Of a stretch of 64,000 bases of DNA, positions 48,485-61,789 are shown one piece after another. The translations under genes and the position numbers were made by a program. The notes beneath the pieces are model-generated. The model made no database searches. It saw nothing but the letters and a program-made list of their open reading frames with translations, and was not told the origin of the DNA. Every line of letters begins with the position of its first letter. Positions within the stretch are counted from its first letter, which is position 1. The DNA is from Candidatus Rokuibacteriota bacterium (lineage in GTDB: Bacteria > Methylomirabilota > Methylomirabilia > Rokubacteriales > CSP1-6): assembly GCA_003220535.1 (NCBI GenBank), contig QHSU01000096.1:20038-84037 (forward strand). The letters are read 5' to 3'.

Positions 48485-50101
48485 ATGACGCGCCGTGATC
48501 TGCTGAGAGCCGGCCTCGTCGGCGGCGCAACGTTGCTCGCCGAGCCCGGGCTGGCGCCCCGCTCCTCCCGGGCTCAGCAGCCCAAACGGGGCGGGATCCT
48601 GCGCGTGCGCGGCTACGATCCGCCGCACTTCGACCCGCTCCTGGCCGTGGCGTTCAAGACCAGCTGCACGGTCAGCTTCGTCTACAACAAGCTCGTGCGC
48701 TACAAGGTGGGCGCCGACGTGCGCCCGGGCACGTTCACAGTGGAGCCCGACCTGGCCGAACGCTGGGAAGAGCTGGACGGCACGACGTACATCTTTCATC
48801 TCCGCCGCGGGGTGCGCTGGCACAACAAGCCACCCGTCAACGGCCGCGAACTCACCGCCGACGACGTGAAGTTCACGTTCGAGCGCTTCCTGTCGGAGCG
48901 GGGGAGCCCGCACCGATACATGCTCGATCCGGTGGACCGGCTCGAAGTCGTGGACCGGTATACCGTCCGGTTTCGCCTCAAGGAGCCGTTCGTCTGGTTC
49001 CTCCACATGCTCGCCAGCCCGTGGGCGAGCTGGATCGTCGCCCGCGAGGTCGTCGAGAAATACGGGGACCTCAAGAAGCCCGAAGCGGCGGTCGGCACGG
49101 GACCCTTCACGCTCGAGCGCTACGACCCGAACGTGAGGACGGTGTTCAGGCGGAACCCCGACTACTTCCGCCCCGGCGAGCCATGGGTGGATGGGGTCGA
49201 CTGGCTCGTGATGGAGGACGACGCCGCCGGGCTCGCCGCCTACCGAACTGGCAAGCTCGACGCCGGTCCCTCCCACTGGTGGGCCGTCCGTCAGGTGGAC
49301 GTGGCCGCTCTCAGGAAGAGCCATCCCCAGCTGGTGTATCAGGACTTCCTCTCCAACGTTCCCAACGCCGTCTACATGCGGTCCGACAAGCCCCCGTTCA
49401 GCGACGTGCGCGTCCGGCGCGCGATCTCCCACGCGATCGACCGACAAACGATCATCGAAGCCGTCTACCTCCGGGGGGAACCGACGCCCATGATCGCGCG
49501 CGGCCTGTCCGAGTGGTCGGCTCGCATCGACCAGCTCGGTCCCGGGGCCCAGTACTATCGGTACGACCCGCGCGAGGCGCGGCGGCTCCTCACCGAGGCC
49601 GGGTTCCCGCAGGGGGTGAAAACCCAGCTGAACGTCACGAGCGGCTATGGGGTCGACGCCGTCGACGCGTATCAGCTGGTTCAGCGCCAGCTCAAGGAGA
49701 GCGGGATCGACGCGGAGCTGCAGGTCCAGGAGTACGGCGCCTACGTGTCGACGACGAACGTCGGGAAGTTCGAGGGGCTGGCGATGGGCCCGGCCGGCAT
49801 CGCCTGGGAGCCGCACACCGTGCTCTACGGAAAGTTCATGCCTGGCGAGCCCCGCAACAACAGCCACGTCAACGACTCCAGGCTCACCGCGATGGTGAAG
49901 GAGCAGATGCGCACGAAAGATCTGGAAATGCGCCGGAAGGTCGTCCTCGACATCCAGCGGCATGCCGCCGAGCAGCAGTACTACGTCTATCTGTATAGCG
50001 TCGGGATCACGGCCTCCTGGCAACCCTACGTGAAGAACTACGCGCCGAACACCGTCTTCGACTACGGCAACCGGGCCGCCGCTGTCTGGCTCGACCGATA
50101 G
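48485..50101 (+). CDS. ABC substrate-binding protein, SBP_bac_5 family, Tat-like leader
   Basis: MTRRDLLRAGLVGGATLLAEPGLAPRSSRAQQPKRGGILRVRGYDPPHFDP...LAERWEELDGTTYIFHLRRGVRWHNKPPVNGRELTADDVKFTFERFL. Confidence 0.95.
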   Translation: MTRRDLLRAGLVGGATLLAEPGLAPRSSRAQQPKRGGILRVRGYDPPHFDPLLAVAFKTSCTVSFVYNKLVRYKVGADVRPGTFTVEPDLAERWEELDGTTYIFHLRRGVRWHNKPPVNGRELTADDVKFTFERFLSERGSPHRYMLDPVDRLEVVDRYTVRFRLKEPFVWFLHMLASPWASWIVAREVVEKYGDLKKPEAAVGTGPFTLERYDPNVRTVFRRNPDYFRPGEPWVDGVDWLVMEDDAAGLAAYRTGKLDAGPSHWWAVRQVDVAALRKSHPQLVYQDFLSNVPNAVYMRSDKPPFSDVRVRRAISHAIDRQTIIEAVYLRGEPTPMIARGLSEWSARIDQLGPGAQYYRYDPREARRLLTEAGFPQGVKTQLNVTSGYGVDAVDAYQLVQRQLKESGIDAELQVQEYGAYVSTTNVGKFEGLAMGPAGIAWEPHTVLYGKFMPGEPRNNSHVNDSRLTAMVKEQMRTKDLEMRRKVVLDIQRHAAEQQYYVYLYSVGITASWQPYVKNYAPNTVFDYGNRAAAVWLDR

Positions 50102-50133
50102 AGCCACCGCCACGTCGCGAGGGAGAAGCGCCA

Positions 50134-51765
50134 ATGACCACGCTCGGGGTGACGCGCCGCGACCTTCTCAGAGCCGGCCTCGTAGCCGGAGCTTCTCTGT
50201 CCGCCGAGCCCGTGCTGGCTCCGCGCGCGCTCCGAGCTCAGCAACCCAAGCGTGGAGGGATCCTCCGCGTGCGCGGCTACGATCCGCCGCACTTCGATCC
50301 GCACCAGACGCTCAACTTCAAGACCAACAACACCCTGAGCTTCGTCTACAACAAGCTCGTCCGTCACAGGGTCGGCGCCGGGGTGGTGCCGGGCACCTTC
50401 ACGGTCGAGCCCGATCTGGCCGAACGCTGGGACGAGCCGGACGACACGACCGTGGTCTTTCATCTCCGCCGAGGCGTACGCTGGCACAACAGGCCGCCCG
50501 TGAACGGCCGCGAGCTCACGGCCGAGGACGTCAAGTTCTCGTACGACCGCTTCCTCACCGAAAAGGGCAATCCGCTCCGCTTCATGCTCGATCCCGTGGA
50601 TCGGGTGGATGTGGTGGATCGGTACACGGTGCGGTTTCGATTGAAGGAGCCGTTCGTCTGGCTCCTCAACATGCTCGCGAACCCGACCGGCACCTGGATC
50701 GTGGCCCGGGAGGTCGTGGAGAAGTACGGGGATCTGAAACGCGCTGAGACGGCGATCGGCACCGGCCCATTCCTCCTCGAACGCTACGAGCCCAACGTGA
50801 AGACCGTCTTCCGACGGCACCCCGACTATTTCCGCTCGGGCCAGCCCTCGGTGGACGGGGTGGACTGGCTGGTGATGGAGGACGAAGCTGCCCAGCTCGC
50901 CGCCTACCGTACGGGGCAGATCGATTGCGCGCCCTGGCACCAGTGGGTCGTGCGTCAGCAGGATCTCGCCGAGCTCAAGAAGAGCCATCCGCAGCTCATG
51001 TATCGAGACTTCGTGTCCAACGTGACGACCGGCATTTACATGAGGACCGACAAGCCGCCGTTCAACGACGTCCGCGTGCGCCGCGCGATCTCCCACGCCG
51101 TCGATCGGCAGGCGATCGTCGACGCCGTGTTCCTCCGGGGCGAACCGACGCCCGCCATCGGCCGTGGTCTGACCGAATGGTCCCCGCGGATCGATCAGCT
51201 GGGCTCGGGAGCTCAGTACTACCGCCACGATCCCAAGGAGGCCCGCCGGCTCCTCGCCCAGGCTGGCTTCCCGCAGGGTTTGAAGACGCAGCTCACCGTC
51301 ACCGGCGGCTACGGAAACGACCTGCTGGACGCCTTCCAGCTCGCCCAGCGCCAGCTCAAGGAGGGCGGCATCGAGGCGGAGCTGAAGGTGCAGGAGTACG
51401 GGGCCTACATGGCGACGACCTTCGCCGGCAAGTACGAGGGCCTGGCGCTGGGGCCGTTCAGCATCTCCTGGGAGCCGCACACCGCGCTCTACGGCATGTA
51501 CGCTCCGGAGCAGGCCCGCAACTCGAGCCACGTCGCCGACGCCAAGATCTTGGCGATGATCAAGGATCAGATGCGCACCAAGGATCTCGAAGCGCGCCGC
51601 AAGCTCATCTTCGACATCCAGCGGTACGCCGCTGAGCAGCAATACTACGTGTATCTCTATTCGCCGACGTTCACGGCGTCCTGGCGACCGTACGTGAAGA
51701 ACTACGCGCCGAATCCGAGCTTCGACTACGGCAACCGCGTCGCCGCGCTCTGGCTCGACCGGTAG
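50134..51765 (+). CDS. ABC substrate-binding protein, SBP_bac_5 family, tandem paralog, Tat-like leader
   Basis: MTTLGVTRRDLLRAGLVAGASLSAEPVLAPRALRAQQPKRGGILRVRGYDPPHFDPHQTLNFKTNNTLSFVYNKLVRHRVGAG; closely similar to preceding SBP. Confidence 0.95.
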   Translation: MTTLGVTRRDLLRAGLVAGASLSAEPVLAPRALRAQQPKRGGILRVRGYDPPHFDPHQTLNFKTNNTLSFVYNKLVRHRVGAGVVPGTFTVEPDLAERWDEPDDTTVVFHLRRGVRWHNRPPVNGRELTAEDVKFSYDRFLTEKGNPLRFMLDPVDRVDVVDRYTVRFRLKEPFVWLLNMLANPTGTWIVAREVVEKYGDLKRAETAIGTGPFLLERYEPNVKTVFRRHPDYFRSGQPSVDGVDWLVMEDEAAQLAAYRTGQIDCAPWHQWVVRQQDLAELKKSHPQLMYRDFVSNVTTGIYMRTDKPPFNDVRVRRAISHAVDRQAIVDAVFLRGEPTPAIGRGLTEWSPRIDQLGSGAQYYRHDPKEARRLLAQAGFPQGLKTQLTVTGGYGNDLLDAFQLAQRQLKEGGIEAELKVQEYGAYMATTFAGKYEGLALGPFSISWEPHTALYGMYAPEQARNSSHVADAKILAMIKDQMRTKDLEARRKLIFDIQRYAAEQQYYVYLYSPTFTASWRPYVKNYAPNPSFDYGNRVAALWLDR

Positions 51766-51801
51766 CTCGGGGAGTCGTCTCGGGTCCCCGTCGAGCACGC
51801 C

Positions 51802-52743
51802 ATGCGCAAGTACGTTCTGAGGCGGCTGCTGGTCGCGATCCCGTCGCTCCTGATCGCGTCCTTCATCGTGTTCTCGCTGCCGCGGCTGCTACCCGGCGAC
51901 ATCGTCCAGCTCATGCTCGAGGAGCGGGCGTACGGCAAAGACCTTGACGATCTGCGGGCGAAGCTCGGGCTGAACCGGCCGATCTACGTTCAGTACTTCG
52001 AGTGGCTCGGCAGCGTCGTCCGGGGCCACCTCGGCGAATCGCTGTGGACCAAGCGGCCCGTCGTCGAGGAGCTGACCCGGCGGCTGCCGGTGAGCCTCAA
52101 GCTGGGCGCCCTCGCGCTCCTCTTCTCGGTCTCGATCTCCCTCCCGATCGGCATCCTGGCCGCCGTGCGGCAGGACACGCTGGCCGACTACCTTTCCCGC
52201 AGCGTGGCCATCCTCGCCCTGTCGATCCCCGGCTTCTGGCTCGCGACGCTCGTCGTGGTCTTGCCGGCGATCTGGTGGAACTGGAGCCCGCCCATCCAGT
52301 TCACCGAGTTCAGCGCCGATCCCTGGGCGCACGTCGCCCAGTTCATCCTGCCGGCGTTCATCCTGGGCGTCGCTTCCTCGGCGGCCATCATGCGTCTCAC
52401 CCGTGCCACGCTCCTGGAAGTCCTCCGCCAGGACTACGTGCGCACGGCCTGGGCGAAGGGATCGCGCGAACGGTCGGTCGTGCTCAAGCACGGTCTGAAG
52501 AACGCGCTGATCCCGGTGGTCACCGTCCTCGGGATCCAGATCGCGCAGATCCTGGGCGGCACTGTCATCTTCGAGACCATTTTCGGGTTGCCGGGCATGG
52601 GGCGCTTTCTCTTCGATGCGATCAACCAGCGGGACTATCCCGTCATCCAGGGCATCAATCTGCTCATCGTCAGCATGATCGTCCTGATGAACCTCCTCGT
52701 CGACGCCTGCTATGCGTTCCTCGACCCGCGGATCCGGTACTGA
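51802..52743 (+). CDS. ABC transporter permease, DppB/OppB type
   Basis: MRKYVLRRLLVAIPSLLIASFIVFSLPRLLPGDIVQLML...VRTAWAKGSRERSVVLKHGLKNALIPVVTVLGIQIAQILGGTVIFETIFGLPGMGRFLFDAI. Confidence 0.96.
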   Translation: MRKYVLRRLLVAIPSLLIASFIVFSLPRLLPGDIVQLMLEERAYGKDLDDLRAKLGLNRPIYVQYFEWLGSVVRGHLGESLWTKRPVVEELTRRLPVSLKLGALALLFSVSISLPIGILAAVRQDTLADYLSRSVAILALSIPGFWLATLVVVLPAIWWNWSPPIQFTEFSADPWAHVAQFILPAFILGVASSAAIMRLTRATLLEVLRQDYVRTAWAKGSRERSVVLKHGLKNALIPVVTVLGIQIAQILGGTVIFETIFGLPGMGRFLFDAINQRDYPVIQGINLLIVSMIVLMNLLVDACYAFLDPRIRY

Positions 52744-52747
52744 CGTC

Positions 52748-53680
52748 ATGGCCAACCAAGTCGAGACCCTGACCACCGCGGCGCGCCGGGCCGAGCGAAG
52801 GCGCCCCGACGCCTCCGGCTCGGCGCGGGTCCGAGCCTTGTGGCGCTTCTGCCGGCGCAAGCCGCTGGGCGCCCTGGGCGGCCTCATCGTGCTCGCGCTG
52901 ATCGTCATGGCCGCGCTGGCGCCGTGGATCGCGCACTATGCGTACGACGAGACCCTCCGGGGCGCCCGCTTGAAAGCTCCGGGCGCGCAGTTCTGGATGG
53001 GGACGGACAACCTCGGGCGCGACATGTGGAGCCGGGTGGTCTACGGCGCGCGCGTCTCCGTCACCGTTGGCTTCGGCGCCGTCCTGCTCGCCAACGCGCT
53101 CGGGGCCCTCATCGGCGTCAGCAGCGGCTACTTCGGCGGAAAGTACGATATCTGCGTCCAGCGGGTGGTCGACGCCTGGCAGTCCTTTCCCTTCCTGGTC
53201 GTGATCCTCTCCATCATGGCCGTGCTCGGCCCGGGCCTCCTGAACATCGTCCTGGCACTCGGCGTGGTCGGCGCCGCCAACGCGTCCCGGGTCATCCGGG
53301 GAACGACCATCAGCGTCGTGGAGAACGTGTACGTCGAATCGGCCCGGGCCATCGGCTGCGGGCACCTGCGCATCATGGTGCGCCACATCCTGCCCAACGT
53401 GGCCGGGACGATCATCGTCCTGGCGACCATCGGGCTCGGAGCGTTCATCCTCGCCGAGTCCGCGCTCTCGTTCCTCGGCTTCGGCGTGCCGCCGCCGTAT
53501 CCGTCCTGGGGGGCGATGCTCTCGGGCGCCGGCCGCTCGTTCTTTTACCAGGCCCCGTGGATGGCGATCTATCCCGGACTCGCCATCTCGCTGGCCGTCT
53601 TCGGCTTCAACATGCTGGGCGATGCGCTGCGCGACATGCTCGACCCCCGGCTTCGAGGCGTCGGGGGCCGGATGCGCTAG
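52748..53680 (+). CDS. ABC transporter permease, DppC/OppC type
   Basis: FCRRKPLGALGGLIVLALIVMAALAPWIAHYAYDET...FWMGTDNLGRDMWSRVVYGARVSVTVGFGAVLLANALGALIGVSSGYFGG. Confidence 0.96.
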   Translation: MANQVETLTTAARRAERRRPDASGSARVRALWRFCRRKPLGALGGLIVLALIVMAALAPWIAHYAYDETLRGARLKAPGAQFWMGTDNLGRDMWSRVVYGARVSVTVGFGAVLLANALGALIGVSSGYFGGKYDICVQRVVDAWQSFPFLVVILSIMAVLGPGLLNIVLALGVVGAANASRVIRGTTISVVENVYVESARAIGCGHLRIMVRHILPNVAGTIIVLATIGLGAFILAESALSFLGFGVPPPYPSWGAMLSGAGRSFFYQAPWMAIYPGLAISLAVFGFNMLGDALRDMLDPRLRGVGGRMR

Positions 53681-53696: not shown

Positions 53697-55328
53697 TCAC
53701 CGCTCCAGCCACAGCGCGGCGACGCGGCTGCCGTAGTCGAACGTCGGGTTCGGAGCGTGGTTCTTCACGGAGGGCTGCCAGGAGCCGGTGTACAGGGGGG
53801 TCGCCAGGCACACGTAGTGCTGCTGCTCGGCCATGTAGCGCTGGATCTCGAAGACGAGCTTCTTGCGCGCGTCCACGTCCTTCAGCCGACGCTGCTCCTT
53901 GATCATCGCGGTCAGCTTGGGGTCGTTGACGTGGCCCCGGTTGCGCGGTTGATCGGGAATGTAGGGCCCGTAGAGCGCGTCGTCGGGGTCCCATGCGACG
54001 GCGAAGGGACCCATCGTCATGCCGTCGAACTTGCCCTGGATCGTCGTCGCCTGATAGGCGCCGTACTCCTGCATTTTCAGCTCGGCCATGATCCCGACGT
54101 CTTTGAGCTGGCCGAGCACCAGCTGCACGGCGTCGACGAGATCGGTGCCGTAGCCTTGGGTCGCGGTCAGCTGCGTCTTGAAGCCGTTGGGGTAGCCGGC
54201 CTCCGCCAGGAGTCGCCGGGCCTCGCGCGGATCGTACCGATAGTACTTGGCCCCCTCGCCGAGCTGGTCGACCGGAAGCGCCCAGTCCTTGAGCCCGCGG
54301 GAAACGGGCCCGCTCGGCTCGCCCCGCATCCACACGGTGTCGATCAGCATCCGGCGATCGATGGCGCGGGAAATGGCGCGACGCACGCGCACGTCCGCGA
54401 ACGGGGGCTGATCGGTCCGTAGCGAGATGGCGTAGACCATGTTGCCCAGGAAATCCTGGTAGACCAGCCGCGGGTGGGTCTTCTTGAGCGTGTCGAGATC
54501 CGACTGGCGCACGGACCACCAGGTCGAGGGCCCCGCGTCGATCTGTCCGGTGCGGTACGACGCGAGTCCCGTCGAGTCGTCCTCGATGACCATCCACTCC
54601 ACGCCGTCCACCGAGGGCTGGCCGGGGCGGAAGTACTGCGGGTTCTTCTTGAAGACCACCTTCACGTTCCGGTCGTAGCGCTCCAGCGTGAAGGGGCCGG
54701 TGCCGACGGCGGTCTCTGGCTTTTTAAGGTCGCCGTACCTCTCCACCACTTCGGGCGCCGCGATCCACATGCAGAGCGCGTTGGCCAGCTTGTGGGGCAG
54801 CCAGACGTACGGCTCGCCGAGGACGAACTTCACGGTGTAGCGATCGACCGCCTCGACCCGGTCGACCGAGTCGAGCAGATACCGCTCAGGGTTCCCCTTG
54901 ACCGTGAGGAAACGGGTGTAGGTGAACTTCACGTCCTCGGCCGTGAGCTCGCGGCCGTTGACAGGAGGCTTGTTGTGCCAGCGCACGCCTTTGCGCAGAT
55001 GGAAGATGTAGGTCGTGTCGTCTGGCTGCTCCCACCGCTCGGCCAGATCGGGCTCCACGGAGAAGCTGCCCGGCGCCACACCCGCTCCCACCTTGTGACG
55101 GAGCAGCTTACTGTAGACGAAGCTCAGGGTGGTCATCGTCATGAAGTTGCGCGTCAGGTGCGGGTCGAAGTGGGGTGGATCCCAGCCGCGCACGCGCAGG
55201 ATCCCGCCCGGCTTGGGGCTCGCGACGGGCCCGGCGGCCAGCATCGCGCCGGCGGCGACGCCGGTCGTGAGCAGATCACGCCGGCTCAGACCGAGACCGT
55301 CCTTTCGCGAGCGGTGTCGCGCGCTCAT
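53697..55328 (-). CDS. ABC substrate-binding protein, SBP_bac_5 family, Tat-like leader, inverted paralog
   Basis: MSARHRSRKDGLGLSRRDLLTTGVAAGAMLAAG...KPGGILRVRGWDPPHFDPHLTRNFMTMTTLSFVYSKLLRHKVGAGVAPGSFSVEPDLAERWEQPDDTTYIFHLRKGVRWHNKPPVNGRELTAEDVKFTYTRFL. Confidence 0.95.
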   Translation of the reverse strand: MSARHRSRKDGLGLSRRDLLTTGVAAGAMLAAGPVASPKPGGILRVRGWDPPHFDPHLTRNFMTMTTLSFVYSKLLRHKVGAGVAPGSFSVEPDLAERWEQPDDTTYIFHLRKGVRWHNKPPVNGRELTAEDVKFTYTRFLTVKGNPERYLLDSVDRVEAVDRYTVKFVLGEPYVWLPHKLANALCMWIAAPEVVERYGDLKKPETAVGTGPFTLERYDRNVKVVFKKNPQYFRPGQPSVDGVEWMVIEDDSTGLASYRTGQIDAGPSTWWSVRQSDLDTLKKTHPRLVYQDFLGNMVYAISLRTDQPPFADVRVRRAISRAIDRRMLIDTVWMRGEPSGPVSRGLKDWALPVDQLGEGAKYYRYDPREARRLLAEAGYPNGFKTQLTATQGYGTDLVDAVQLVLGQLKDVGIMAELKMQEYGAYQATTIQGKFDGMTMGPFAVAWDPDDALYGPYIPDQPRNRGHVNDPKLTAMIKEQRRLKDVDARKKLVFEIQRYMAEQQHYVCLATPLYTGSWQPSVKNHAPNPTFDYGSRVAALWLER

Positions 55329-55350: not shown

Positions 55351-57030
55351 TCAGTGCCGGCCCGCGCCGCCCGGCGTCGGTGCCGGCGCCGGGAAGTACT
55401 CGGCGACCGGAATTTCGATCACAACAGGCTCGTTCGAGGCCAGCGCTTCCTTCATGGCGTCCCCGATCTCCTCGGGGCGCTGCACGTATATCCCGCGCGC
55501 GCCGTACACCTCGGCCAGCTTGTCGAAGCGCGGGTTGACGAGGTCGACCCCGATGTAGCGCCCGCCGAAGTGGCGCTGCTGCTGGGCCTTCTCGGCGCCG
55601 TGGCAGCTGTTGTTCAGCACGATGCTGACGAGCGGGATGCGCCAGCGCACCGCCGTGTTGATCTCTTGCGAAGTGTAGAGGAAGCCGCCGTCGCCCTGCA
55701 GACTCACGGCCGGGCGGTCGGGCCGTCCGAGCTTGGTCCCGAGACCGACGCAGTAGCCCATGCCGAGCCCGCCGTGCCCGGCGTAGTTGAACAGCGTGCG
55801 CGGGATCTCGAAGTGCAACCGGTCGTAGGCCAGTCCCGGCGCGACGCCGGCGTCGATCGTCACCATGCAGTCGCGGGGCAGGACACGGGAGAGCTCCGGG
55901 TACACCCGCTGCGGCATCATCGGCGTTCCGGTCAGGGACAGCTCGGCCTGGAGCCTCGCCTGACGCCGCGCCGCCAGGGCCGCCACCTCGCTCCGCCACG
56001 CTTCCTTGGGACGGCCCCGCGGATGGGCGTCGCGCACGGCGCGGAGTAGTTGCTCGGCCACGGCCCTGGCATCTCCCACGATCCCGACCGCCACCGGGTA
56101 GTTGCGGCCGATCTCCTGGGCGTCGATGTCCACCTGGACGATCTGCGTGTCGCGGTTGATCACGCGGTAGTCCCAGAATGTCGTCGGCTGATTGAGGCGC
56201 GTCCCCAGCGCGAGGATGACGTCGGCACGGTGCAGGGCTTCCGCCGCCTCGGCGGACCCACGGCCTCCCGGCGGCCCGACGTACAGATGATGGCTGTTGG
56301 GGACCGCGTCGGTGTGGCCGTAGGAAGGCACGAGCGCCATGTCCAGAAGCTCGGCCAGCGCGACCGCCTCCTTGCTCGCCTCGGCGTCGATGATGCCTCC
56401 GCCCGCCAGCAGGAGCGGCCGCTGCGCCCGCGCCAGCAGCGCCGCCGCGCGCTGGATGGCCTGCGGGTCCCCCGCGATGCGGGTCTCCACCGCGCGGTAC
56501 GCCCCCGGACGGAGCGGCTCCCCCGCGATGGTCTGGTCGTCCAGGAGATCTCGCGGGATATCCAGGAAGACCGGCCCGCGCTTGTCGGCGAGCGCGGCGC
56601 GGAAGGCGTAGTGCAGCATCTCGGGGATACGCTCGGTCTTGTTCACCTCGAGCGCGAGCTTGGTGATTGGCTTGAACAGCCCCACCAGGTCGAACGCCTG
56701 GCTGCCGTCGCGATAGATGAAATCGCGCGCGACGTCGCCGGCGATCACGATCACGGGCGCCCGTCCCTTGTAGGCGAGGGAGATACCCGTGACGAGATTG
56801 ATGGTTCCGGGCCCGGAGGTGGTGATGCAGGCGGTGGGCTTGCCGGAGGCGCGGGCATAGCCGTATGCCATGAAGGCCGCGCCCTCTTCGTGCCGGGTGT
56901 CGACGAAGCGGATGTCGCTCCGCCCGTGCATCTCGGTGACGATGCTGTTGGTGGTCGAGCCCACCACGCCGAAGGTGTACTCGACTCCTTCCGCGCGCAA
57001 CGCTTCCAGGACGGCCAGGCCCGCTTTCAT
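55351..57030 (-). CDS. thiamine-pyrophosphate enzyme (acetolactate-synthase-like superfamily)
   Basis: MKAGLAVLEALRAEGVEYTFGVVGSTTNSIVTEMHG...RHEEGAAFMAYGYARASGKPTACITTSGPGTINLVTGISLAYKGRAPVIVIAGDV...LQGDGGFLYTSQEINTAVRWRIPLVSIVLNN. Confidence 0.94.
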   Translation of the reverse strand: MKAGLAVLEALRAEGVEYTFGVVGSTTNSIVTEMHGRSDIRFVDTRHEEGAAFMAYGYARASGKPTACITTSGPGTINLVTGISLAYKGRAPVIVIAGDVARDFIYRDGSQAFDLVGLFKPITKLALEVNKTERIPEMLHYAFRAALADKRGPVFLDIPRDLLDDQTIAGEPLRPGAYRAVETRIAGDPQAIQRAAALLARAQRPLLLAGGGIIDAEASKEAVALAELLDMALVPSYGHTDAVPNSHHLYVGPPGGRGSAEAAEALHRADVILALGTRLNQPTTFWDYRVINRDTQIVQVDIDAQEIGRNYPVAVGIVGDARAVAEQLLRAVRDAHPRGRPKEAWRSEVAALAARRQARLQAELSLTGTPMMPQRVYPELSRVLPRDCMVTIDAGVAPGLAYDRLHFEIPRTLFNYAGHGGLGMGYCVGLGTKLGRPDRPAVSLQGDGGFLYTSQEINTAVRWRIPLVSIVLNNSCHGAEKAQQQRHFGGRYIGVDLVNPRFDKLAEVYGARGIYVQRPEEIGDAMKEALASNEPVVIEIPVAEYFPAPAPTPGGAGRH

Positions 57031-57033
57031 CGG

Positions 57034-58296
57034 TCATGTCCTCCGCACCATGGCGGGAAGAAGATGCTTGATCGTTGGCGCGCCGATCTGCTGCATGATG
57101 GCGCGCGTCTCGATGCGCAACAACTCGAGCGCGCGCTCGACGCCTGGCTGCCCGAAGGCGCCGAGGCCCCAGATGTAAGGCCGGCCCACGCACACCGCCG
57201 TCGCTCCCATGCACAGCGCCTTGACGATGTCGGTGCCGCGGCGGAAGCCCGAGTCGACCAGGATCGGGATGCGGCCCTTCACCGCCTCGACGATTTCCGG
57301 CAGCGCATCGATGGTGGAGCGCCCGCTGTCTTCGCTGCGCGCGCCGTGGTTGGAGACGATGATCCCGTCCATCCCGGCGTCGGCGGCGAGCACGGCGTCC
57401 TCGTGGGCGAGGATGCCCTTGAGCACGATCTTCATTTTGGTCGTACCGCGCAGCCGCTTCATGAAATCCCAGGTCATCGCGGAAGACTGGGTGTGCGTCA
57501 GCCCGGTCACGTCAACGCCCTCGTACATGGGCCGGCGCTTCAGGGCGGCTTGCAGGCTGGAGCGGTCATGGCAGGCCGAACATTGGCGGGTATCGGTGCG
57601 CAGCAGCCGGACCAGGGTTTCCTGATTGCGGCCGCTGCTGCGATCGATGGTCACCGCGACCACCGGGCATCCCGCCTTCTCCGCGCGCGTCACGAAGGCC
57701 TGGGCGACCTCCCATTTGTTGGTGGCATAGAGCTGGTACCAGACCGGGGCGCCACGCGCGGCGATGACATCCTCGACGCCTGTCGTCGTGCCCGTCGAGA
57801 GGATCTGCAGGTGGTGTCCGACCTTCGCCGCTCTCGCGGTGGCGATTTCGCCGTCCGCGTGGAAGGCCTTCTGGCCGCCGACCGGAGCGAGGACGATCGG
57901 CGTGTCGTATCGTACGCCGAGGATGTCGACGCTCATGTCGACCTTGCTGACGTCGACCAGCCGGCGGGGGCGCAGCACGAATTTCAGGAAGTCCTCGCGA
58001 TTCCGACGCAGCGTCACCTCGTCGTCGATGCCGGAGGCCATGTAGCCGAAATGCGCGGGAGGAACCTTCGCGCGCATGACCGGCTCGAAATCGAACACGT
58101 TGATCGCCTCGTTCGGCGACTTGATGAGAGCTTCCGCGCGCTGCGGCGCCCACATGATGGGGTCGGAAAGCCTCGTTCCGGGCGTGGGACCTTCGCTCGC
58201 GAAGGCGTCGAGACCTCCATAGGCCAACAGAGGGCTACCGGCCAGGAATTGCAGAAATTTTCGGCGACTGCTACTCGAATCGAGGACGGATGACAT
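57034..58296 (-). CDS. FMN-dependent alpha-hydroxy-acid oxidizing protein with Tat-type leader and internal CxxCH
   Basis: MSSVLDSSSSRRKFLQFLAGSPLLAYGG; DDEVTLRRNREDFLKFVLRPRRLVDVSKVDMSVDILGVRYDTPIVLAPVGGQKAFHADGEIATARAA; DGIIVSNHGARSEDS; CSACH at 57568-57582. Confidence 0.93.
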   Translation of the reverse strand: MSSVLDSSSSRRKFLQFLAGSPLLAYGGLDAFASEGPTPGTRLSDPIMWAPQRAEALIKSPNEAINVFDFEPVMRAKVPPAHFGYMASGIDDEVTLRRNREDFLKFVLRPRRLVDVSKVDMSVDILGVRYDTPIVLAPVGGQKAFHADGEIATARAAKVGHHLQILSTGTTTGVEDVIAARGAPVWYQLYATNKWEVAQAFVTRAEKAGCPVVAVTIDRSSGRNQETLVRLLRTDTRQCSACHDRSSLQAALKRRPMYEGVDVTGLTHTQSSAMTWDFMKRLRGTTKMKIVLKGILAHEDAVLAADAGMDGIIVSNHGARSEDSGRSTIDALPEIVEAVKGRIPILVDSGFRRGTDIVKALCMGATAVCVGRPYIWGLGAFGQPGVERALELLRIETRAIMQQIGAPTIKHLLPAMVRRT

Positions 58297-58437: not shown

Positions 58438-58857
58438 ATGGGCATCAAGGGCATCGACCACTGGGTCATCGTCGCAGGCGATCTCCAGCGCACGTTGGGC
58501 TTCTACCAGGGGCTCGGCTGGGTGCGGAAGAAAGGGATCATGCCGCTCGAGCTAGCCGTTCGCAGGTTGACCTTCGACTCGGCCACCGCCTTCGGGATCT
58601 ACGATCGCGGGCTCCTGCAGCCTGGGATGGCGGCCGACCTCGTCGTCTTCGATCCCGACACCGTGCAGCCGGTCACGGGAGACGTGGTGCACGACTTCCC
58701 GAACAACGGCTGGCGGATGCGGGAGCTGGCCGAGGGGATCCACTACACCGTGGTCAACGGCGAGGTCCTCCTCGAGAAGGGAACGCACACGGGGAGCTAC
58801 CCCGGCCGCGTGTTGCACAACGCCCGGTGTCACGTGACTCACAACGGTCGGGGTTAG
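58438..58857 (+). CDS. chimeric ORF: VOC N-terminus fused in frame to amidohydrolase C-terminus (deletion derivative of a second copy of the 44.99-48.26 kb locus)
   Basis: MGIKGIDHWVIVAGDLQRTLGFYQGLG (as 44986 gene) followed by WVRKKGIMPLELAVRRLTFDSATAFGIYDRGLLQPGMAADLVVFDPDTVQPVTGDVVHDFPNNGWRMRELAEGIHYTVVNGEVLLEKGTHTGSYPGRVLHNARCHVTHNGRG (as end of 46550 gene). Flanking DNA also matches on both sides. Confidence 0.95.
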   Translation: MGIKGIDHWVIVAGDLQRTLGFYQGLGWVRKKGIMPLELAVRRLTFDSATAFGIYDRGLLQPGMAADLVVFDPDTVQPVTGDVVHDFPNNGWRMRELAEGIHYTVVNGEVLLEKGTHTGSYPGRVLHNARCHVTHNGRG

Positions 58858-59468: not shown

Positions 59469-61415
59469 TCAGTGCACGTGGTCGTCGGGGAAAGGCGGCG
59501 GGCTCTTCTCATCGTTCAGTTTCTCCACCTGGGCCTGGACCACGCTGGCCTGCGGCATCTCGCCGCCTCTCCAGATCGCGCGGATGTAGCCCTGGCGGTC
59601 GATCAGGATCTCCGCGTGGGGTCCCGGCGCGAACATCCCGTACGTCGCGATGATGTCGCCATTGCCGTCGGTGACCACCGGGAACAGCACGGCCGGTGAC
59701 GAGCCGAGCTCGCGGATCGCCTCGGCTGGGGCGTGAATCGGCACGGCGATGATCTCGACGCCGATGACGGAGAGCACGTCATAGCTGCGCGCCAGCTCCG
59801 CCATGCGCGCGCGGGACTCGGGCAGCGTGTAGAGCACCAGCAGAACCATTCGCCGTCCCCGGTGGTCGCGCAGGGCACCCGGCGCCAGCGGACCCACCGC
59901 GACCGTGAAGTCGGGCGCGGCGAGCCAGGCGCGGTCGGGCTCCACCCGGGATCCGAGCGCCTGCGCGCCCTTGGCGGCGCCGAGAGCCCGGATGAAATTG
60001 ATCACGTCCCAGCGTCGGGCTTCGCCGAGACGGCTGCCGAAGTCCGGCATGCCGCGCTCGGGAATGCCGTGGCTAATCAGCCAGAAGATCTCGCCCGCGT
60101 GACGGCGTGACGTGGGCGGCGAGCGAAGATCGGCGAGCGACCCGGCGGCGCCCGTGGCGCCGTGGCAGCCGGCGCAGTGCTCGCGGTAGATCGTCATTCC
60201 CGAGGCGATGGACGCGGCGTGGTACGTCAGGAGCGGACGCTTGTACGTCGTCGGGTAGGCGTCGACCACGAGCGGGAGAACGCCGACGCCCGCGCCGATG
60301 GCGACGAGCGCGAGGCCGCCCGCGAGCACTGGCACGCGCCGGCGCCGCACGAGACACGACGCGATCAGCGCGACCAGGCCCGCCACCGCCAGCTGGCTGC
60401 CCAGCAGCGCGCGCCACCGCATCGTCGGCACGTCGTCAAGGACGTCGGGGGAGAGTCGAAACGGCAGCGGCCAGACGGGCTCGGCGTGGCGGGCCGGCGT
60501 TGTCAGCGTCATCGCTGCGGCCAGCCCGAGTAGGACGAGCGCGAGCACAGCTTCCAGTCCGACGAACGCGGTCAGATGCCGCATGGTCGAGCGCCCGATG
60601 GGGACGCTCGGCGCGGACAGCGCCGGAAGAATCCGCGTGCGGTTGACGGCGGCGAGGACGAGGATCGGGACGAGCACGACGAGCTTGGCGAGGAGCAAGC
60701 GGCCGTGCGTCGTCCCGGCCAGGGCGGCGACACTCTCGACCTGAGCGATCGCGTTCAGCGCGCCCGAAGCCACCAGGAGGAGCATCACGATCAGCGCGGC
60801 ACGGGAGAAGCGACGCGCCGCGAGGACGGCGTAGGGGCGCGCGTCGGCGCCGTCCTCGCGACTCGCCGCTCGTAGCAACAGCGCGAGCGCCACGAGGCCG
60901 CCGACCCAGAGGCCCGTTCCCACGACGTGCGTGACGTCCACGGCCACCGCCAACGTCGTGCCTGGGGTGATCGCGGCGGCGTGACTGGAGGCGCTCATAA
61001 GGGCCAGCGCCAGCGTGGCAAGTGTCAGCGCCTCGCCGCGCGCGGCGAGCCAGTCGCGCCGCTCCGCGATGCTCGCACGCATCGCCAGAAACACGCCGAG
61101 CACGATCAGGAGCCCGTGCCGCGCCAGCCAGACGAGTCCAGGCCACGTATCGAGAACGGCGTGCCACACGGCGCGAGGCTCGAGAGCGGCCTGAGGACGG
61201 TTCTCGAAGACAGCCGTCCGCAGCAACAGCCAGACGACGCCCGAACCGAGCGCCACGAGCACGAGCAGCCGCGAGCCGCGCACGAGCGTCTGATCCCACC
61301 GGCGCGGCGTCGCGGCCCGGGGCTGACCCGCGAGCAGGAGCATAGAGAACGTGCCCACCAGCAGCACGCAGGAGGCGAGGTGCACCCAGAGCGCGGCGAG
61401 GAGCAGCGCCCTCAT
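59469..61415 (-). CDS. CopD-domain membrane protein fused to cytochrome c and Cys-less thioredoxin/peroxiredoxin-like domain
   Basis: MRALLLAALWVHLASCVLLVGTFSMLLLAG (CopD); IYREHCAGCHGATGAAGSLADLRSP...GIPERGMPDFGSRL (c-type heme CxxCH and Met); DHRGRRMVLLVLYTLPESRARMAELARSYDVLSVIGVEIIAVPIH...AEILIDRQGYIRAIWRG. Confidence 0.88.
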   Translation of the reverse strand: MRALLLAALWVHLASCVLLVGTFSMLLLAGQPRAATPRRWDQTLVRGSRLLVLVALGSGVVWLLLRTAVFENRPQAALEPRAVWHAVLDTWPGLVWLARHGLLIVLGVFLAMRASIAERRDWLAARGEALTLATLALALMSASSHAAAITPGTTLAVAVDVTHVVGTGLWVGGLVALALLLRAASREDGADARPYAVLAARRFSRAALIVMLLLVASGALNAIAQVESVAALAGTTHGRLLLAKLVVLVPILVLAAVNRTRILPALSAPSVPIGRSTMRHLTAFVGLEAVLALVLLGLAAAMTLTTPARHAEPVWPLPFRLSPDVLDDVPTMRWRALLGSQLAVAGLVALIASCLVRRRRVPVLAGGLALVAIGAGVGVLPLVVDAYPTTYKRPLLTYHAASIASGMTIYREHCAGCHGATGAAGSLADLRSPPTSRRHAGEIFWLISHGIPERGMPDFGSRLGEARRWDVINFIRALGAAKGAQALGSRVEPDRAWLAAPDFTVAVGPLAPGALRDHRGRRMVLLVLYTLPESRARMAELARSYDVLSVIGVEIIAVPIHAPAEAIRELGSSPAVLFPVVTDGNGDIIATYGMFAPGPHAEILIDRQGYIRAIWRGGEMPQASVVQAQVEKLNDEKSPPPFPDDHVH

Positions 61416-61789
61416 TCGATCCGGAACGTGAACGCGCCTTCGGTGACGTCGCCGTCGATCGAGAGCACGCGCCACTGCACCTTGTAAGCTCCCGGCCGCA
61501 GCGGCGGAAGCGTCGCGCGCAGCAGCGCCGGGTTCGTGCGGTCGACGCGGCTGTCCCGGCGGTCGACCTGCACGCCCTGATCGTTCATGACGCGGAATGC
61601 GCTGTACGCCGGCTCGAGGCGCTCGGTGAAGTACAGCTTGACCTCGTCGGGCGCACGCTTCAGCTTGCTCTCGACGCGGGGCTCCGCTCGCTGGAGAACA
61701 GCGTGGCCTGCGGCGACGGTCGTGGTCAGCGCGCAGGCGGCGAGCGCGAGACCGAGTCGCCTCGCGCTCGCTCGCCCCATGGGCGCCAC
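61412..61789 (-). CDS. copC: copper-resistance CopC-domain protein
   Basis: LALAACALTTTVAAGHAVLQRAEPRVESKLKRAPDEVKLYFTERLEPAYSAFRVMNDQGVQVDRRDSRVDRTNPALLRATLPPLRPGAYKVQWRVLSIDGDVTEGAFTFRIE; ATGA overlap with CopD fusion. Confidence 0.93.
   Translation of the reverse strand: MAPMGRASARRLGLALAACALTTTVAAGHAVLQRAEPRVESKLKRAPDEVKLYFTERLEPAYSAFRVMNDQGVQVDRRDSRVDRTNPALLRATLPPLRPGAYKVQWRVLSIDGDVTEGAFTFRIE

Follow-up and report, generated by a model that had tools for sequence, protein, structure and literature searches.

The window, by which we mean the whole stretch of 64,000 nucleotides of Candidatus Rokuibacteriota DNA that was analysed, carries on its reverse strand a gene of the FMN-dependent alpha-hydroxy-acid dehydrogenase family that begins with ATG (Table 1). 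This gene probably heads an operon with the genes for a ThDP-dependent enzyme, whose start is preceded by GGAGG, and for a family 5 solute-binding protein; the adjacency of the ThDP enzyme gene was not kept in the related loci that were clustered. Convergent with the operon, the forward strand (48485-53680) encodes two permeases together with two solute-binding proteins of family 5. On the other side lies a 139-aa open reading frame (58438-58857, forward strand), in which the first 30 or so residues look glyoxalase-like by eye and residues 24-110 match the C-terminal end of Amidohydro_3 alone, suggesting a chimeric or remnant gene. Further on, a single reverse-strand open reading frame (59469-61475) matches CopD, cytochrome c (CBB3/Cytochrom_C) and AhpC/TSA in series, and has a CopC gene directly upstream (61412-61789, reverse strand), the whole resembling a copper/heme/redoxin fusion.

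Table 1. Features of the locus, with positions in the window
Feature	Position	Strand	Basis and remarks
FMN alpha-hydroxy-acid dehydrogenase gene, 420 aa, with Tat-type leader and CxxCH in the lid	57034..58296	-	Open reading frame and Pfam
N-terminal leader, residues 1-33	58198..58296	-	RR at residues 11-12 (58261-58266), SRRKFLQFLAGSPLLA core, AFA before the predicted cleavage point
His82, clade-specific invariant, candidate distal heme ligand	58051..58053	-	99/99 CxxCH sequences vs 0/26 other homologues, counting as one event; role presumed
Loop 4 (residues 217-275), active-site lid joining beta4 to the next helix of the barrel	57472..57648	-	DSSP of the model and glycolate oxidase alignment
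CSACH, putative heme c attachment motif, residues 239-243	57568..57582	-	C239, C242 and H243 in 99/99 (by construction); D235 and R237 near-invariant just before
Catalytic His317 to Arg320 (HGAR)	57337..57348	-	Counterparts of His254 and Arg257 in spinach glycolate oxidase; act with Y85, Y190, D218 and K293
ThDP-dependent enzyme gene (acetolactate synthase-like), second in probable operon	55351..57030	-	Pfam/NCBIfam; 3 bp downstream of the FMN enzyme gene
Family 5 solute-binding protein gene with its own SRRDLL leader, third in probable operon	53697..55328	-	Pfam

The 420-aa protein matches the Pfam profile FMN_dh (PF01070) over positions 2-349 of 350 (E=3.9e-109), and the same scan otherwise returned weak NMO and IMPDH matches alone, with no cytochrome b5 domain and no cytochrome c domain. 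No NCBIfam model scored above its cut-off, the LldD model reaching 191.9 bits against a cut-off of 550. An AlphaFold2 model built on the clade alignment adopts a TIM-barrel fold (mean pLDDT 83, pTM 0.82), with pLDDT of about 63-83 across the loop blocks at residues 221-280, and the top Foldseek match was the glycolate oxidase 5zbm (5zbm_A, TM 0.74/0.88), 1gox also being matched. The original prediction had been of an open reading frame with an SRRxFLx-type leader and a CSACH motif, all of which are present at exactly the coordinates given for them.

For comparison we assembled the window protein and 98 relatives, of about 42% identity upward, as a set of 99 CxxCH sequences, together with 26 homologues lacking the motif. 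Similarity to the window protein was the criterion for gathering sequences, and presence of CxxCH the criterion for assigning them to one set or the other, so that the occurrence of C239, C242 and H243 in 99/99 sequences of the first and 0/26 of the second is, for the motif itself, true by construction. Two observations are independent of this sorting: all homologues above about 43% identity hold CxxCH and none below do, and a tree calculated without the leader and loop columns divides the same two sets. In that tree, which is unrooted and was made by a quick method, one branch of length 0.94 (SH-aLRT 100) divides 57 CxxCH rows from the 26 others; on the sequences compared, CxxCH is thus confined to one side of a branch and not scattered. 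Four paralogues from the window's own genome (L001, L002, L003 and L005) are among the 26 that lack it.

A search of one genome from each of 84,980 species recovered 80 loci at 55-81% identity, all with CxxCH at the same site. Genomes were also surveyed in the window's class (95) and in two orders, one that of a Bradyrhizobium genome (298) and the other that of a Burkholderiales genome (300). Members found there reached down to 44-47% identity and all carried CxxCH, while full-length matches at 42% identity or less lacked it. Members of the clade span Alpha- and Betaproteobacteria, Acidobacteria, Rokubacteria and others, and the gene is patchily distributed, with a clear member in 12/298 genomes of the Bradyrhizobium order and 6/300 of the Burkholderiales order. 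Among the 95 genomes of the window's class, an intact full-length copy is found in the window genome and one other of the same family (G086) alone. Elsewhere in the class, a genome of the window's genus (G050) has a clade copy split across two frames (L098), and another of the same family (G067) a partial copy (L100). Tandem pairs of clade genes occur at L047 (4548-7245) and at L037 (2763-5485).

A CxxCH anywhere in a shuffled protein of 420 residues arose in 0.11% of draws, but it is mainly the family survey that rules out a chance motif, since 99/99 clade members, with pairwise identities as low as 42%, keep the site despite variable loop neighbours. Residues flanking CxxCH vary freely across the clade while the motif stays in place; just ahead of it, D235 is retained in 98/99 and R237 in 96/99 CxxCH sequences, and elsewhere R112 and D91 are present in 99/99.

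The protein begins MSSVLDSSSSRRKFLQFLAGSPLLAYGGLDAFA, an RRKFL leader of Tat type in which the twin arginine precedes a moderately hydrophobic stretch (SRRKFLQFLAGSPLLA), as the sequence of a Tat substrate requires. A leader of the pattern RRx[FLIVM][LIVMFA] is found in 96/99 members of the CxxCH clade against 3/26 other homologues, and the three clade members that depart from it comprise a fragment, one RRLWL that keeps the arginine pair and one WRN. The suggestion that an RR leader and CxxCH might be co-conserved in the family is therefore strongly upheld. TatC is encoded in the window's own genome (E=1.6e-70), and we infer that the protein is exported through Tat, a route that fits an FMN enzyme folded beforehand. 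That leader and motif should be a coincidence in an ordinary cytoplasmic oxidase is barely conceivable: the nearest structures are indeed ordinary glycolate and lactate oxidases, but CxxCH is strict and RR near-strict over the clade, CxxCH is absent from the paralogues, and the family survey contradicts it. A leader of RR type also occurs outside the clade. L099 and L102, from the window's genus, are separate and possibly exported FMN_dh paralogues, and L104, on a Klebsiella pneumoniae plasmid (NZ_OR095741.1), is an FMN_dh protein named 'alpha-hydroxy-acid oxidizing protein' whose leader reads SRRIFI; all three share family and leader type with the clade but lack CxxCH and His82. L104 adjoins DoxX and is near ZigA, and many Klebsiella plasmids have what is apparently the same match.

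The CxxCH motif lies in the beta4-alpha4 loop, which in family enzymes is a flexible lid above the flavin site (PMC4908395, PMC10153336). The original prediction had placed it in an insertion, and this is ruled out by loop length, the loop counting 60 residues (T216 to W276) where tobacco glycolate oxidase has 58; judged by alignment, loop 4 is rewritten rather than lengthened. The catalytic apparatus is retained. Y85, Y190, D218, R223, K293, H317 and R320 align to Y24, Y129, D157, R164, K230, H254 and R257 of glycolate oxidase, and Y190, D218, K293, H317 and R320 are invariant in both the 99 CxxCH sequences and the 26 others, while Y85 is found in 98/99 of the former. At position 140, where plant glycolate oxidase has Ala79, 97/99 clade members have Gly or Ser; a glycine here was considered as a mark of dehydrogenases but is not diagnostic, as it is also present in 16/26 other homologues.

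Outside CxxCH, His82 is the sole His, Met, Lys, Cys or Tyr that is invariant and specific to the clade, and is on this count the best candidate for a distal heme ligand. It aligns to Val21 of spinach glycolate oxidase, three residues ahead of Tyr24, and precedes the substrate tyrosine by one helical turn. The equivalent of Tyr24 in flavocytochrome b2, Tyr143, lies at the contact between flavin and heme domains, which would put His82 near the lid. Since a single branch holds all CxxCH sequences, the joint presence of His82 and CxxCH represents one event and not many.

From these features we think it likely that the gene encodes a Tat-exported flavocytochrome c, in which electrons would pass from FMN to a heme c on the lid and on to soluble periplasmic carriers. 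The enzyme, of glycolate oxidase fold, would fold with its FMN in the cytoplasm and then cross by Tat, and the host's cytochrome c maturation system would attach one c-type heme to the CxxCH of loop 4, with His243 as proximal and probably His82 as distal ligand. An L-2-hydroxy acid would reduce the FMN by the chemistry of the family, and the FMN would pass electrons, one each time, to the lid heme and thence to a soluble periplasmic cytochrome c. Heme attachment, export, ligation by His82, electron route, substrate and acceptor are all read from sequence and conditional in this sense. Cytochrom_C_asm is present in 14/14 host genomes examined, with three matches in the window's own, and discriminates little, such genes being common in bacteria of this kind. 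An exported flavocytochrome had been proposed from the outset, and the co-conservation of leader and CxxCH, the site on the lid, the Ccm genes of the hosts and the Tat genes all fit it, whereas the insertion that formed part of the proposal has fallen away.

Tat moves folded proteins, and Ccm normally works on unfolded apocytochromes, so that attachment of heme here needs an exposed, flexible loop. A fuller version of the flavocytochrome reading, which we put forward tentatively, is that heme c sits on the mobile lid, axially ligated by His243 and His82, that lid closure couples substrate binding to transfer between FMN and heme, and that Ccm acts on the loop of a folded, Tat-exported flavoprotein.

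The same residues could serve otherwise. CxxC with His243 and His82 might form a structural metal site, of zinc for example, or a redox disulfide that closes the lid, a heme-free exported enzyme then reducing oxygen or quinone. C239, C242, H243 and H82 are all invariant and would suffice for a Cys2His2 site, and a CxxC in the periplasm could form a disulfide, but a His immediately after the second Cys in 99/99 sequences is the canonical signature of heme c, H243 is needless for a disulfide, and an adjacent Cys-His pair is unusual for zinc; we regard this explanation as unlikely, yet one to be taken seriously. Far less probable is an enzyme that does carry heme c yet remains bound to the membrane, works for a partner complex, or has a function outside catabolism, for instance in sensing or in gating of the lid. 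The hydrophobicity of the leader is modest, with cleavage predicted, and gene context is variable, both of which leave room for such a role; however, the catalytic residues are all retained, and neighbour clustering and Pfam searches of the related loci disclosed no conserved partner gene, nor any conserved neighbour acting as a dedicated electron-accepting subunit. Among the neighbours, TctC carboxylate receptors alone recur, in 37/81 loci, a context weakly consistent with the use of organic acids given how abundant TctC receptors are in such genomes.

A flavocytochrome of this kind would stand apart from the systems it most resembles. Glycolate oxidase and hydroxyacid oxidase 1 (PF01070; 5zbm, 1gox, 6gmb) have the same fold, the same catalytic residues and a similar length of loop 4, but neither leader nor heme motif. 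LldD L-lactate dehydrogenase and MdlB mandelate dehydrogenase are, like the proposed enzyme, FMN_dh dehydrogenases rather than oxidases; these act on the cytoplasmic side with quinone as acceptor and are not known to carry heme. The flavocytochrome c enzymes FccAB and Fcc3 combine flavin with periplasmic c-type heme, as is proposed here, but have unrelated FAD folds and carry their hemes in separate cytochrome domains or subunits. Flavocytochrome b2, the yeast L-lactate:cytochrome c oxidoreductase, shares the FMN domain, acts outside the matrix or cytoplasm and uses the route from FMN through heme to cytochrome c that we propose for the clade. Its heme is of b type and belongs to an additional cytochrome b5 domain at the N-terminus, whereas the clade protein has one CxxCH inside barrel loop 4; the latter would work like flavocytochrome b2 without being one, as it has no cytochrome b5 domain, and would be a convergent, single-domain counterpart of that fused enzyme.

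No matching description of an FMN_dh protein with CxxCH in its lid was found in Pfam, NCBIfam, the PDB or the open literature searched, and annotation pipelines would probably miss the putative heme site, since the motif lies within the barrel and matches no Pfam profile for cytochrome c. The constancy of the lid motif throughout a widespread bacterial clade, to which the protein of this soil bacterium belongs, suggests an undescribed enzyme that would deliver electrons from hydroxy acids straight to the periplasmic cytochrome chain. If so, a clade whose sole database match is the general FMN_dh family would consist of periplasmic dehydrogenases feeding that chain without producing peroxide, and its members would be minimal, one-domain flavocytochromes of use in biosensors based on direct electron transfer. 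The protein would also probe whether a loop in a folded protein exported by Tat is open to cytochrome c maturation.
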